Position numbers and translations under genes: made by a program | Shown: positions 58,354 to 62,364 of the stretch, piece after piece | How positions within the stretch are numbered: the first letter of the stretch is position 1 | How the letters are laid out: the number at the start of each line of letters is the position of its first letter | Notes under the pieces: model-generated | What the model saw: only the letters and a program-made list of their open reading frames with translations | Database searches by the model: none | Told to the model about the DNA's origin: nothing | Assembly (NCBI RefSeq): GCF_013377085.1 | Contig: NZ_JACAAX010000011.1 | Span: 1-64,000 of the forward strand | Reading direction: 5' to 3' | Source of the DNA: Rhodoplanes sp. | GTDB lineage: Bacteria > Pseudomonadota > Alphaproteobacteria > Rhizobiales > Xanthobacteraceae | DNA length: 64,000 nucleotides

Positions 58354-58758
58354 GGTGATCCTCTGTGCAACCGGTGACCGGCGCGGCCGCACCTATGGCA
58401 CAGGCCGGGGGCGGGCGGCAAGGCGAGGGGGGGACGGGCGACCTTGGGCAATTGGGCGTATTTTGACGGGACGGGCGCACTTGAGGAACGAAACGGCGTA
58501 AAATTTGGACTCGCGCCGAGTCCCAACCTGCTGGCTCGGTATCAGACTTTGTGACGCCAAGTATTTCCGGCCTGGTTAGCAGGTCCGGCCGCGGAACAAC
58601 CTCCGATAAAGCGCCGCGAGATGGCAGGATTGCACAGTTTCGCGATATGCGCGATTGTGACCAACGCGACCGCAACCTACGCGCTCAGATCGCCTGTCAG
58701 AGTCGAGAATTGCGACGAATAACTCTGAATTATGAACTCCCGCAGATAAGGCACAGCC
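58354..58758. other. Intergenic gap and left edge of AT-rich island
   Basis: 405 bp. The first 150 bp are GC-rich and should hold the fabI promoter; from about 58500 base composition falls. No gene is evident. The element ATAACTCTGAATTAT (58719-58733) lies near its right end. Confidence 0.55.
58719..58733 (+). promoter_or_regulatory. 15-nt element shared with the convergent gene
   Basis: ATAACTCTGAATTAT lies 25 nt before the GTG start of the lycopene-cyclase-like gene. The identical 15 nt occur in the same gene-relative orientation before the membrane protein gene (60949-60935, reverse strand). Confidence 0.5.
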
Positions 58759-59913
58759 GTGCATTCAATCGACGTACTGGTCGTCGGCGCAGGTCCAGCA
58801 GGGCTCCTTGCTGCCTCCGAGCTTTCTCAAAATCATCGTGTAACGATAATTGACAGCGGCGTTATAGGACGAACACAGAAATTTTGGGTTACGACTGAAA
58901 GGCGGCTTCGGAAACATAATCTAACTGACTGTGTCATCAACAGACCAGCTAGAATGACTGCCGGCACCTTCCTTGGTGGGCGGGTTTCTGTTGCTGGCGA
59001 TTTTGCTGTGGTCGACGACTTAAAGGTTCTGCAAATCCTCATTGAGCGATGTCGCCAAAGAAACGTTTCGATTATCGACCATTGCGCTCTCTTGAATCTT
59101 CGATGGAAAAAGGAATCTATTGAATCTACCACAACTAAAGAAATATTTAGCTCTCGTATCGTTCTGGACGCAACGGGCGGCGGGTCGCCAATCGCAAGCG
59201 CCTTTCGACTTCATCGAATAGACGGCTTCTACGCGGTTTACGGCGGTCTGCTTCACAATATCAACCTTCATTCCGATGATATCGTTTTAGGTCATGTCGA
59301 ACATCTTGGAGACCCATGCCCAATCTTCGAAGTGGTGCCAACTAGTCAAAGTAGCGCATATTGCGTAATATTTGTCTTCACAAAAACGCTTGTCACGCCA
59401 AACTCACTTGCAACTGCCTTCGAAAGACATTGTCGCCACAATCCGTTTTTCACGCTAACAAAATATACTTGTCAAATCGCAGAGAAGACAGGAGTCATAC
59501 CAATCGGCCGCGTACGACGCCGAAGGCTTCCTGGTATTGTATCGTTAGGGGAGGCTGGATTTATCCAGCCGCCATTGATGGGAACGGCATTTAATGAAAT
59601 TTTAGAGTATTCACACTCGATATGCGAGTGCATTTCAAAAAACTTAGAAAGGGATCATTTAGTTTGCCAATTATCAAGCATGCCGTATCCTGTACTAAAG
59701 CGACTCCAAGACAGCCTCCAGCTCGCCGTTGCAAGAACGATGATGAGAGGAAACGTGGAACTGTTCGATAAAACGCTTCGCGTCATGAACGGATTTCCCG
59801 AAGAAATTATATTCAAGTTCTTTTCTAACGAACTTGCATGGCGGCAGCTCGTCTGGGTTGCGACGAGACTACCTCTAACTTTAGCGTTCATGCGAGAAGA
59901 CCACTACGTTTGA
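58759..59913 (+). CDS. Lycopene-cyclase-like FAD-dependent oxidoreductase
   Basis: 384 aa with GTG start and AAGG 7 nt upstream. The N-terminal Rossmann motif is DVLVVGAGPAGLLAASELS. Mid-protein VLDATGGGSP and the later GVIPIGRVRRRRLPGIVSLGEAGFIQPPLMGTAF match the layout of CrtL/CrtY lycopene cyclases and related non-redox flavoproteins, but the similarity is distant. No other carotenoid gene is present. The gene is far more AT-rich than its surroundings, with codons such as ATA, TTA and AAT, indicating horizontal acquisition. Its 3' end overlaps the convergent gene by 10 bp. Confidence 0.7.
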   Translation: MHSIDVLVVGAGPAGLLAASELSQNHRVTIIDSGVIGRTQKFWVTTERRLRKHNLTDCVINRPARMTAGTFLGGRVSVAGDFAVVDDLKVLQILIERCRQRNVSIIDHCALLNLRWKKESIESTTTKEIFSSRIVLDATGGGSPIASAFRLHRIDGFYAVYGGLLHNINLHSDDIVLGHVEHLGDPCPIFEVVPTSQSSAYCVIFVFTKTLVTPNSLATAFERHCRHNPFFTLTKYTCQIAEKTGVIPIGRVRRRRLPGIVSLGEAGFIQPPLMGTAFNEILEYSHSICECISKNLERDHLVCQLSSMPYPVLKRLQDSLQLAVARTMMRGNVELFDKTLRVMNGFPEEIIFKFFSNELAWRQLVWVATRLPLTLAFMREDHYV

Positions 59914-60890
59914 CCCAATATCGGTTTTGCGACGATGATTGCGACATTGAATAAAAGTGGGAGGCTTGTGCGGATTGCAATCCCGAGGTCAACGACATAG
60001 TCCGGCGTTCCGCTAATGCGATCAAACAACTGGACCAACGAATTGACTTTCTGAACACCCTCATTGTCAAGACTTTTATAATTGATCAGCAGATTATCTA
60101 TTTCACTCTGGTAGGAGATGAGTATTTGCTCTTTTGACTTTTTTATAAGCCCGTGCATTGCTAAGTGCGGATATATCAGTGCCGCTGAACAAATGGGCAC
60201 ATATATAAGTGGCCAGAAAAATTGCACAGCTTCAATGTAATCTTGACGGCCAGTCCAATGTCCTTTCATGGTTCCTGCAAACGCGAATGAATATGCAATG
60301 CTGAGAATTAGAGTAAATGTCGTAAAGTAGTTAATTAGGTTCCGAAGCTCGGGAGTTCGAGCAGGTGCATACTGAAATGTTTTTATCCCTCGAAATTGCA
60401 ATTTGTGTATGACCATGATCAGGTCAACCGTGTGAAGGGTCACTACGCCAGCAGCGACGCAGACGGCGCCAGCAGTGCCCCACATGAATAATTGAATTGC
60501 CCCTGAGGCGTTGAATCCCATCCCGATAAGGCTCGCCGTTCCAGCAACCGCTATCGTTCCAGCTATCAATACACGAGTACGGCGACCGATGATTCCTTCA
60601 GTCACAATGGAGCCATCGATCGAAATTCGAGATGCGCGGTCAATAAGCGCCCCTGATCGAGCGATTAATACCAACCAAGTACCAAACCAGATAAGAAATG
60701 AACCTTGTAAGCTCAGCCACTCAGCAATGAACGTTTTCAGATCTCCTTGGAGAAACGCAATAACTACGCCGGCCAGCGTCCATATGACTGCCACACCAAG
60801 ACCGACTACGAAGTACAGAAAATATCCAACGCGACATGCACTTTCGTTCGTCCTCTTTAAACATTTCTTTGTCTTCGATTGTTTCTTCAT
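59904..60890 (-). CDS. Unknown polytopic membrane protein of the AT-rich island
   Basis: 328 aa from ATG 60890 (MKKQSKTKKCLKRTNES). ATG 60971 is in frame and would add 27 residues, but it would place the shared 15-nt element inside the gene. About five or six hydrophobic segments are visible: VGYFLYFVVGLGVAVIWTLA, FLIWFGTWLVLIARS, TRVLIAGTIAVAGTASLIG, LFMWGTAGAVCVAAGVVTLH, a segment near 210-225 and a C-terminal one. A soluble stretch (SYQSEIDNLLINYKSLDN) follows. I do not recognise the family. An 8-codon frame ending in TGA overlaps the chosen ATG. Low GC, like its convergent partner. Confidence 0.7.
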   Translation of the reverse strand: MKKQSKTKKCLKRTNESACRVGYFLYFVVGLGVAVIWTLAGVVIAFLQGDLKTFIAEWLSLQGSFLIWFGTWLVLIARSGALIDRASRISIDGSIVTEGIIGRRTRVLIAGTIAVAGTASLIGMGFNASGAIQLFMWGTAGAVCVAAGVVTLHTVDLIMVIHKLQFRGIKTFQYAPARTPELRNLINYFTTFTLILSIAYSFAFAGTMKGHWTGRQDYIEAVQFFWPLIYVPICSAALIYPHLAMHGLIKKSKEQILISYQSEIDNLLINYKSLDNEGVQKVNSLVQLFDRISGTPDYVVDLGIAIRTSLPLLFNVAIIVAKPILGQT

Positions 60891-60934
60891 TTCGCTTCGT
60901 CTGTTTTGTACATGTCCAAAGACCGGGTTTGACG

Positions 60935-60949
60935 ATAATTCAGAGTTAT
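60935..60949 (-). promoter_or_regulatory. 15-nt element shared with the lycopene-cyclase-like gene
   Basis: On the reverse strand it reads ATAACTCTGAATTAT, 44 nt before ATG 60890. It is identical to 58719-58733, in the same sense relative to its gene. Chance recurrence of 15 nt within 2.2 kb in equivalent positions is improbable. Confidence 0.5.
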
Positions 60950-61107
60950 CTTCAGAACTCCTAGTCACCATTCGTCGGCAGGTTGTCTCAGAGGCATGAT
61001 CGACGCTTGACGTTGCATGAAACTTATCTGGTTAATCCTCCCCGCAATCTCCCCTCGCTTCGGCCCCCGGTATGCCCCATGACGTGCCCGCGCAAAGGGA
61101 GGAACCG

Positions 61108-62364
61108 ATGGCGTTCCGGGCGGCGGTCGAGGGTTTTCTGCAGTTCTGTGCGATCGAGCGGCAGATGTCGCCGCACACGGTGGCGGCGTATCGGGCAGAT
61201 CTCTCTGACTTCCTGAAGTTTTTGCCGATCGGGGCGGCGCCCGGAGAGGTCGGCGAGGCGGCGCTGCGGGCGTATCTGACCGACATGGTGGGGGAGCGCG
61301 GGCTCTCGGTCGCCACGGGCCGGCGGCGCTTTGCTTGTCTTCGCGCGTTCTTCCGCTGGCTCACCGAGATATCGACAGGCGCCGTGCTTACCGAGACGGC
61401 CGGCGACCGCGCCGTGAGAAACGCATCCTGCGCCGGGGAAACGCCGTCGGTCGGGGGCAGGACGGCCAAGCCGTCGGCCGGCGTGGGGCCGAAGCCCGGC
61501 CTTTCGATCGAGGTCGATGGCGTTCGTGGGGCTGGGGCTGGGGCTGGAAGTAGCCTTTCGGCTGGCGGCGGAGCCGAGGTTGAAGCCGGAGACCGGACCG
61601 GGCCTGATGTCGACCCCGGCGCTGCGGTGGGGCCCGGCCCCGCCCAAAATCCCACCCTATTGGAAAATCCCTTCAAAACCTTCCGGCTGCGACTGCCGCG
61701 GCGAAAGCGGCTGCCCCGCACCTTGTCGCGGCCCGAGGCCGCCGCCCTGATGGGGTCGTTGCGCCGCAGCGTGCCGGAGCGGCCGTCCCCGGCGAGCGGG
61801 CGCACTGCCACGGCCGGTCTGCCGCGCGTGTCGCTCTCCCCCGGCGAGGCCGGTTTCGCCATCGCGCTGCAGCTCATGGTGGCGACCGGCATTCGGGTCG
61901 GCGAGCTGTGCCGGCTGCGCCTCGACGAGGTGGCGCCGGACGGCGGCGCGCTGCGCATCCACGGCAAGGGGGCACGCGACCGGATGGCCTACATCACCGA
62001 CGCGGCCTTGGCCGCCGCCCTCGCCCGGTTGCGGGCCGAGCGGGCCGCCTTCGCTGGAGCGGATACGGTCGCCGTGCCGCTGTTCGTCAACCGCCGCGGC
62101 ACGCCGCTCAGGCCGCAGTCGATCCGGGCCCGGCTGCGGGTGCGGGCACGCGACGCCGGCCTCTCCCGCCGGGTCACGCCTCACATGCTGCGCCACACCG
62201 CCGCGACCCTCTTGATCGAGACCGGCGTCGACATCCGCTTCGTGCAGCGCCTTCTCGGCCATGCCAGCATCGCGACCACCGAGATCTACACCCACGTCTC
62301 CGACGAGGCGCTACGCACCACGCTGGCCCGCGCCGACGTGCTCGGCGCGCTGCGCCCGCACTGA
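61108..62364 (+). CDS. XerC/XerD-type tyrosine recombinase with internal low-complexity insert
   Basis: 418 aa from ATG 61108 with AGGGAGG 5 nt upstream; ATG 61072 is in frame. The N-terminal SAM-like domain (about 5-88) is [23 protein letters not shown]. The catalytic domain has Arg263 (TGIRVGEL), Lys287, His359 and Arg362 ([11 protein letters not shown]), His385 (LGHASIATT) and Tyr394. Xer proteins are about 300 aa; here roughly 90 Gly/Ala/Pro-rich residues (about 91-184) sit between the two domains. GC content is high, like the chromosome, unlike the island beside it. It could be a chromosomal recombinase or the integrase of the island. Confidence 0.87.

Follow-up and report, generated by a model that had tools for sequence, protein, structure and literature searches.

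A two-gene cassette bounded by inverted dif-like sites beside an Xer-like recombinase gene in an alphaproteobacterial genome

An AT-rich island and its paired 15-nucleotide sites

The window analysed here is a stretch of 64 kb from contig C3 of Rhodoplanes sp., an alphaproteobacterium with a genome of 6.48 Mb and roughly 70% guanine plus cytosine (GC); within it we describe an AT-rich island in which two convergent genes lie next to the gene of an Xer-like tyrosine recombinase. A first-pass annotation of the window had remarked on the low base composition and codon use of the island, on the 10 bp overlap of its two genes and on the adjoining recombinase gene, and all of this was confirmed. The island has 45-47% GC inside surroundings of ~70% GC; 1-kb windows over 59001-61000 gave values of 0.458 and 0.455 against about 0.70 around them, and the two island genes have a GC fraction of 0.44-0.46 at third codon positions, compared with 0.89 in fabI and 0.85 in the neighbouring recombinase gene. 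Gene A (58759..59913, + strand) starts with GTG and encodes a flavin adenine dinucleotide (FAD) flavoprotein of 384 amino acids (aa). Gene B (59904..60971, - strand) encodes a polytopic membrane protein of 355 aa (328 aa if translation starts at M28, position 60890) with about 6 transmembrane (TM) segments by hydropathy. The recombinase gene (61072..62364, + strand; 430 aa, start probably at 61108) encodes a SAM-like N-domain and a phage-integrase domain.

Comparison with the congener G001 by blastn (L042) shows collinearity on the fabI side up to 58464 and again from about 62385, with about 45 nucleotides (nt) between. The segment missing from this genome (58465..62385, ~3.9 kb) comprises the two-gene cassette and the Xer-like gene, which in the window lie between fabI and a HAD-like gene; G002 and G004 likewise lack it. 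Since the island and the recombinase gene are both absent from G001, they were gained or lost together. The earlier suggestion that this is transferred, foreign DNA is supported by its composition, by the empty site in G001 and by the lack of homologues in relatives.

The gene pair is bounded by an exact inverted repeat, ATAACTCTGAATTAT, at 58719-58733 (+) and 60935-60949 (-). The left copy, ATAA-CTCTGAA-TTAT with its centre at 58723-58729, is a putative Xer-type core, and the right copy is the same site inverted. The first-pass annotation had found the element at both positions and had placed it before both starts in the same gene-relative orientation. That orientation is as described, but for convergent genes it amounts to an inverted repeat around the pair; the left copy does precede its gene, while the right copy falls inside the longest open reading frame (ORF) of gene B (ATG at 60971) and can be counted as upstream only if the gene starts at M28. 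When the whole genome was searched with up to two mismatches allowed, the 15-mer was found at these two places only. Each copy is near-palindromic, with 3 mismatches against its own reverse complement. Dinucleotide shuffling of the island produced an exact inverted repeat of 15 nt in 7 of 3000 trials, and none of 100 random copies of the window contained an inverted pair of identical ATAA-N7-TTAT cores.

The recombinase matches PF00589 with 124 bits and PF02899 with 49 bits, and its alignment retains all of the catalytic residues (R, K, HxxR, H and Y). A low-complexity linker of about 95 aa (61380-61670), rich in Gly, Ala and Pro, separates the core-binding and catalytic domains and is missing from the orthologues. 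A housekeeping role as XerC or XerD was ruled out by sub-cut-off equivalog scores (XerC 193.1 against 335.2; XerD 180.2 against 329.6), by separate XerC/XerD-like genes on contigs C12 and C40, and by the absence of the gene from congeners. Among 157 genomes of the family, orthologues occur in G041, G880 and G923 only. In G041 the orthologue immediately precedes aroC; fabI is carried by a separate contig and has a different gene after it. The G041 contig (L076 end, G041:C19:113191; L085) breaks about 157 nt upstream of the orthologue, so that a cassette at this locus would be out of view.

Matched core pairs at other Xer loci

The orthologous recombinase genes of G880 and G923 are each preceded by an AT-rich stretch (48-50% GC against about 65% around it) with two convergent genes. 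The inverted repeat bounding the pair is TTCATAACTCGGAATTATG (19 nt) in G880, where the cargo is a pentapeptide-repeat protein and an aminotransferase-like protein, and ATCATAACTACGAATTATGG (20 nt) in G923, where it is a 6-TM protein and a cyclopropane-synthase-like methyltransferase. At both loci the ATG that ends the repeat is the start codon of each cassette gene. The sites of the window, G880 and G923 have ATAACTnnGAATTAT in common; the middle varies by locus and is the same in both copies.

Further loci were found by plasmid protein searches with the G880 recombinase and then with an Aliarcobacter recombinase. On Methylobacterium radiotolerans pMRAD01 a pair of ATAATCGGGGATTATGG bounds two genes with their annotated starts inside the repeats, one D-Ala-D-Ala-ligase-like and the other encoding an ATPase; on Phaeobacter inhibens pP66_d a 22-nt pair has several genes between its copies, and the left annotated start lies outside the repeat; in Paenibacillus sp. 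IHBB 10380 a 30-nt pair contains a GGAGG ribosome-binding site. Inverted pairs were also found in Aliarcobacter cryaerophilus (two strains) and A. faecis, and on megaplasmids of Streptococcus salivarius/equinus, where they measure 26-39 nt and include GGTAGGAGA. All of these pairs reduce to ATAA-N7-TTAT. The core of E. coli dif is CATAA-TGTATA-TTATG, and by this comparison ATAA-N7-TTAT is a dif-like core with a centre of 7 nt rather than 6 nt.

In total, 14 Xer loci, the window and 13 others from Alphaproteobacteria, Campylobacterota and Firmicutes, each have exactly one identical inverted core pair around convergent genes; 5 of the 14 are related Streptococcus plasmids. The 7-nt centre matches within each locus and varies between hosts. 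Among the Alphaproteobacteria it is CTCTGAA in the window, CTCGGAA in G880, CTACGAA in G923, TCGGGGA in M. radiotolerans and CTGAGAA in Phaeobacter; in the other phyla it is CTATGAA in Paenibacillus, TAGGTAA and TAGGATA in Aliarcobacter, and TAAATTG in Streptococcus. Start codons lie mostly at or just inside the repeats, at offsets that are matched at both cores in G880, G923 and M. radiotolerans (-1/-1) and in S. salivarius NU10 (16/16). Random sequences gave 0-2 pairs per 200 sequences per locus. As a further control, 75 viral loci (0.56 Mb), each with at least one core, gave single matches of the 17-nt core pattern and no pair, and these matches were rejected as cassette sites and ascribed to chance. 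The locus in the window belongs to an architecture that recurs, a two-gene cassette linked to an Xer-like gene.

Single or partial elements accompany Xer-like genes elsewhere. On Rhodobacterales plasmids (L172-L175, L177, L182, L184) a conserved element ending TTATCGTTAC lies about 70-100 nt upstream of xer and has no second copy; in L175 it is a full palindrome, GTAACGATAA...TTATCGTTAC. This is probably a site of the cassette-bounding kind at which no cassette is present. Ruegeria pSD25 carries one site like that of Phaeobacter pP66_d and a degenerate partial copy (L169 5772-5783, 4130-4141), with IS21 nearby, and possibly represents a decayed cassette. On a Bradyrhizobium septentrionale plasmid (L167 6531-8852) the Xer homologue is preceded by a STAND/TPR-type gene like the cassette partners seen elsewhere, and a transposase lies beyond.

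Cassette replacement and the proposed inversion

Whole cassettes have been replaced between conserved flanks. G880 and G923 have left flanks that are 87% identical and right flanks that are 86% identical, and their cassettes are without any match. The flanks of S. salivarius NU10, ICDC2 and SALI-10 are 95-99.8% identical right up to the repeat and enclose three unrelated cassettes, which encode a polyprenyl synthetase with a membrane protein, an SHMT-like protein with a STAND/TPR protein, and a GNAT-like protein with a methyltransferase. In A. faecis and A. cryaerophilus M830MA the cassettes are unrelated; the stretch between xer and the adjoining site is 97.7% identical in the two, and the DNA past the other site is 90.7% identical. 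These alignments show three independent swaps. Some pairings also recur across hosts: an ATP-grasp protein with a STAND-type NTPase in Methylobacterium, Paenibacillus and two Aliarcobacter strains, and a GNAT protein with a methyltransferase in Aliarcobacter and Streptococcus. Counted from xer, M. radiotolerans and M830MA have the ATP-grasp gene first, and in Paenibacillus and ATCC 43158 it is the NTPase gene that leads; this pair thus occurs in both orientations, between distant hosts.

We propose, with good confidence, that the inverted dif-like sites bounding the window cassette belong to the adjacent, dedicated Xer-like recombinase, which most likely exchanges and inverts the cassette. With the sites at the 5' ends of convergent genes, the pair would enter as a package and rely on the flanks for its upstream signals. 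Most likely the enzyme would both replace the entire cassette with another at this position and invert it between its sites, inversion placing gene A or gene B beside the fixed flank as a two-state switch between unrelated proteins. Xer-type tyrosine recombinases need identical central regions in both sites, and this need predicts centres that are matched within a locus and specific to it, which a regulator-binding site would not need. As the sites are inverted and their identical centres asymmetric, the segment between them could only invert. The tyrosine recombinase PsrA of S. pneumoniae inverts DNA across a 15-bp inverted repeat, as established by deletion and complementation (PMC4948785), so a repeat of this length is enough for inversion. 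We infer that the recombinase acts on these sites, that the cassette may invert in cells with its expression depending on orientation, and that the host may benefit. In the sequenced state of the window the flavoprotein gene is at the xer-distal flank.

Several observations weigh against this proposal. In the window the repeat match does not extend beyond 15 nt, and the distances between core and start codon are unequal (26 nt for the GTG of gene A and 45 nt for gene B, or a core within the ORF). A complete core pair is lacking at 12 of 25 other Xer loci, among them that of the 55%-identical Xer homologue of B. septentrionale, and the recombinases with pairs do not form one clade in the tree, in which the G923 row is unreliable; the mixing of paired and unpaired recombinases implies repeated origin or loss of the arrangement, or else a tree too weak to resolve them. 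No opposite orientation was seen between near-identical genomes: the S. salivarius/equinus plasmids with a common polyprenyl-synthetase cassette have it in the same orientation, as do SALI-10 and LAB813. Homologous recombination in the flanks could also replace cassettes. Finally, scans of the flanks with a sigma-70-type consensus point no more than weakly to the xer-distal flank as the promoter side in G880, Aliarcobacter and Streptococcus. A promoter and terminator scan gave no more signals than were found in shuffles.

Exchange alone is the alternative that fares best. Here the sites would be boundaries for the exchange of gene pairs, both genes would be expressed from flank promoters, and inversion would be rare or without effect. 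Wholesale replacement with kept flanks is the best-shown fact at these loci, the travel of the same families in pairs across phyla fits cooperating genes better than alternative ones, and in Streptococcus consensus scans find promoter-like -10 motifs on both sides of the cassette. However, inverted sites with identical asymmetric centres would necessarily invert if the enzyme acts on them, and the same family pair occurs in both orientations relative to xer; we regard exchange alone as possible but rather unlikely.

The first-pass annotation had instead read the 15-mer as a shared promoter or regulator site, and a near-palindrome before both genes, unique to this place in the genome, would suit an operator or promoter element that co-regulates them. 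Yet the island has no regulator gene, the start codon itself lies inside the element at several loci, and the centre is locus-specific while being the same in both copies. In other phyla such elements bound unrelated gene pairs beside related recombinases; the 15-mer thus behaves as a recombination site, and co-regulation seems improbable. We give still less credence to the idea that the copies mark the two ends of a small transposon as its terminal inverted repeats, its transposase being elsewhere or lost. Inverted repeats do end a foreign segment that is absent from G001, but neither a transposase nor a target duplication was found, the segment is single-copy in the genome, the recombinase gene lies outside the repeats and yet goes with the island, and the same spot holds different cargo in Streptococcus, in Aliarcobacter and between G880 and G923, in contrast to what transposon insertions show. 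Hardly credible is the idea that two unrelated foreign genes arrived next to an Xer-like gene already in place, through homologous or illegitimate recombination of the ordinary sort, and that the 15-nt match is chance: the position of the G041 orthologue beside aroC, in the same general neighbourhood, means that the recombinase may predate the cargo, and shuffling does at times yield such a repeat, but the same chance event would be needed again at each of 13 other Xer loci.

Exchange together with inversion, the reading we prefer, has partial parallels in known systems. In the tail-fibre G/C segment of phages Mu and P1, and in Moraxella pilin, convergent alternative genes in an invertible segment are read from a fixed upstream signal. 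Gin and Cin are serine recombinases, Piv is of the DEDD type, and the alternatives there are homologous surface proteins; the loci described here differ in their Xer-like enzyme and in their two unrelated genes. As in tyrosine-recombinase switches of the FimB, PsrA and RecV kind, two inverted copies of a short site bound the window segment, and the locus encodes a tyrosine recombinase with intact catalytic residues. The inversion of Spn556II hsdS by PsrA likewise combines a locus-encoded tyrosine recombinase with an inverted repeat as short as 15 bp; there, experiments established that inversion selects the expressed coding sequence (PMC4948785), which for the window we only propose. The PsrA repeats, however, are internal to homologous hsdS genes, and what they shuffle is the specificity domains of one restriction system; the repeats described here enclose complete, unrelated genes, a pair that is entirely different from one locus or strain to the next.

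The pdif or XerC-D modules of Acinetobacter plasmids are also bordered by Xer core sites, and their exchange is ascribed to site-specific recombination (PMC6863613). Their sites are recognized by the host XerC/XerD, with many per plasmid and varied modules (PMC6863613), whereas the present loci have a dedicated Xer-like gene and exactly one inverted pair around a convergent gene pair; the two copies in the window, with their 7-nt centre, also depart from the 11-6-11 layout of pdif. By analogy, the arrangement resembles an integron in its resident Xer-related recombinase and in its foreign, exchangeable cargo, which is richer in AT and relies on expression signals from outside. It differs in having a convergent pair between inverted sites, with neither attC sites nor a direct-repeat array; the recombinase scores 103.8 bits against the integron-integrase model (cut-off 265), and no attC-like array was found.

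On a broader view, these loci may constitute a widespread and undescribed class of Xer-driven 'flip cassettes', in which a dedicated recombinase serves one locus, convergent pairs with their start codons at the recombination sites pass between bacteria of different phyla, and flipping lets the cell make one at a time of two unrelated proteins, the flavoprotein and membrane-protein families of the window being new; we see about equal grounds for accepting and for doubting this generalization. No earlier description of the architecture was found in the literature searched, which covers few subscription journals, and an earlier description is possible. If correct, this would be a second, integron-like route by which foreign genes are acquired, two at a time, at a fixed address and with a built-in switch, and it would offer a testable model of the phase-variable expression of unrelated proteins. 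The signature, an Xer-like gene with one inverted ATAA-N7-TTAT pair around convergent genes, would make it possible to catalogue such loci in every genome, and many uncharacterised pairs of enzymes, STAND NTPases and membrane proteins would then come within reach.

The cargo proteins and neighbouring genes

The gene A protein has a GxGxxG FAD motif in an N-terminal FAD-binding fold, which it has in common with CrtY/CrtL along with a weak full-length similarity (20-25% identity). The label lycopene-cyclase-like given to it by the first-pass annotation is borne out as weak family similarity, with Pfam scores of 44.5 bits for DAO and 38.3 bits for Lycopene_cycl (cut-off 23.4), but the 38.9 bits for the NCBIfam model carotene-cycl fall far under the cut-off of 209.5. 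By these similarities the protein is a distant member of the lycopene cyclase / geranylgeranyl reductase superfamily. Its closest relatives, also at 20-25% identity, are a stand-alone 465-aa protein of G806 and true CrtY proteins whose genes adjoin crtB and crtI in small (1.4-Mb) alphaproteobacterial genomes. The ETTY motif of CrtY, whose Glu we take to be the catalytic residue, aligns with VIFV in the gene A protein, so that with the expected Glu missing it is probably not a lycopene cyclase; the island also has no carotenoid genes.

Both cargo proteins were searched for among plasmids, phages, viral contigs, genome contigs of 84,980 species and up to about 400 genomes each of the class and phylum. 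For gene A only the distant relatives were found, and for gene B no homologue and no family above cut-off; E. coli genomes gave no match, and a Christensenella match (L077) spans 47 residues only. The two families were accordingly not found as neighbours elsewhere, as had been envisaged, because neither gene has close relatives, and it is the architecture that recurs, with other genes. The membrane cargo proteins of 330-355 aa from the window, G923 and S. salivarius NU10 have no detectable kinship with one another (z <= 1.5). Structures predicted for the two cargo proteins of the window from their own sequences, without relatives, are of too low a confidence to be of use, with a mean predicted local distance difference test score (pLDDT) of 46 and 34.

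A role as a defence pair, another early suggestion, is not supported, as no window protein matched a PADLOC model of known anti-phage defence at E <= 1; the single match in other cassettes was mads_2, on the methyltransferase domain of a G923 protein. A link to lipids or isoprenoids is at most suggested by the polyprenyl synthetase of one Streptococcus cassette and the cyclopropane-synthase-like enzyme of G923. In S. equinus (L187 5880-6960) the second cassette gene has a frame break near its 3' end relative to S. salivarius NU10. The 465-aa flavoprotein of G806 (L078 1462-2859), which lies between panC and a histidine kinase, likewise lacks the expected catalytic Glu, and with the window flavoprotein it may form an unnamed family. 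The HAD-like gene beyond the recombinase gene (62476 to about 65190) stands beside fabI in G001 and is missing in G002 and G004; its presence and absence among congeners indicate more than one gene gain or loss upstream of fabI.

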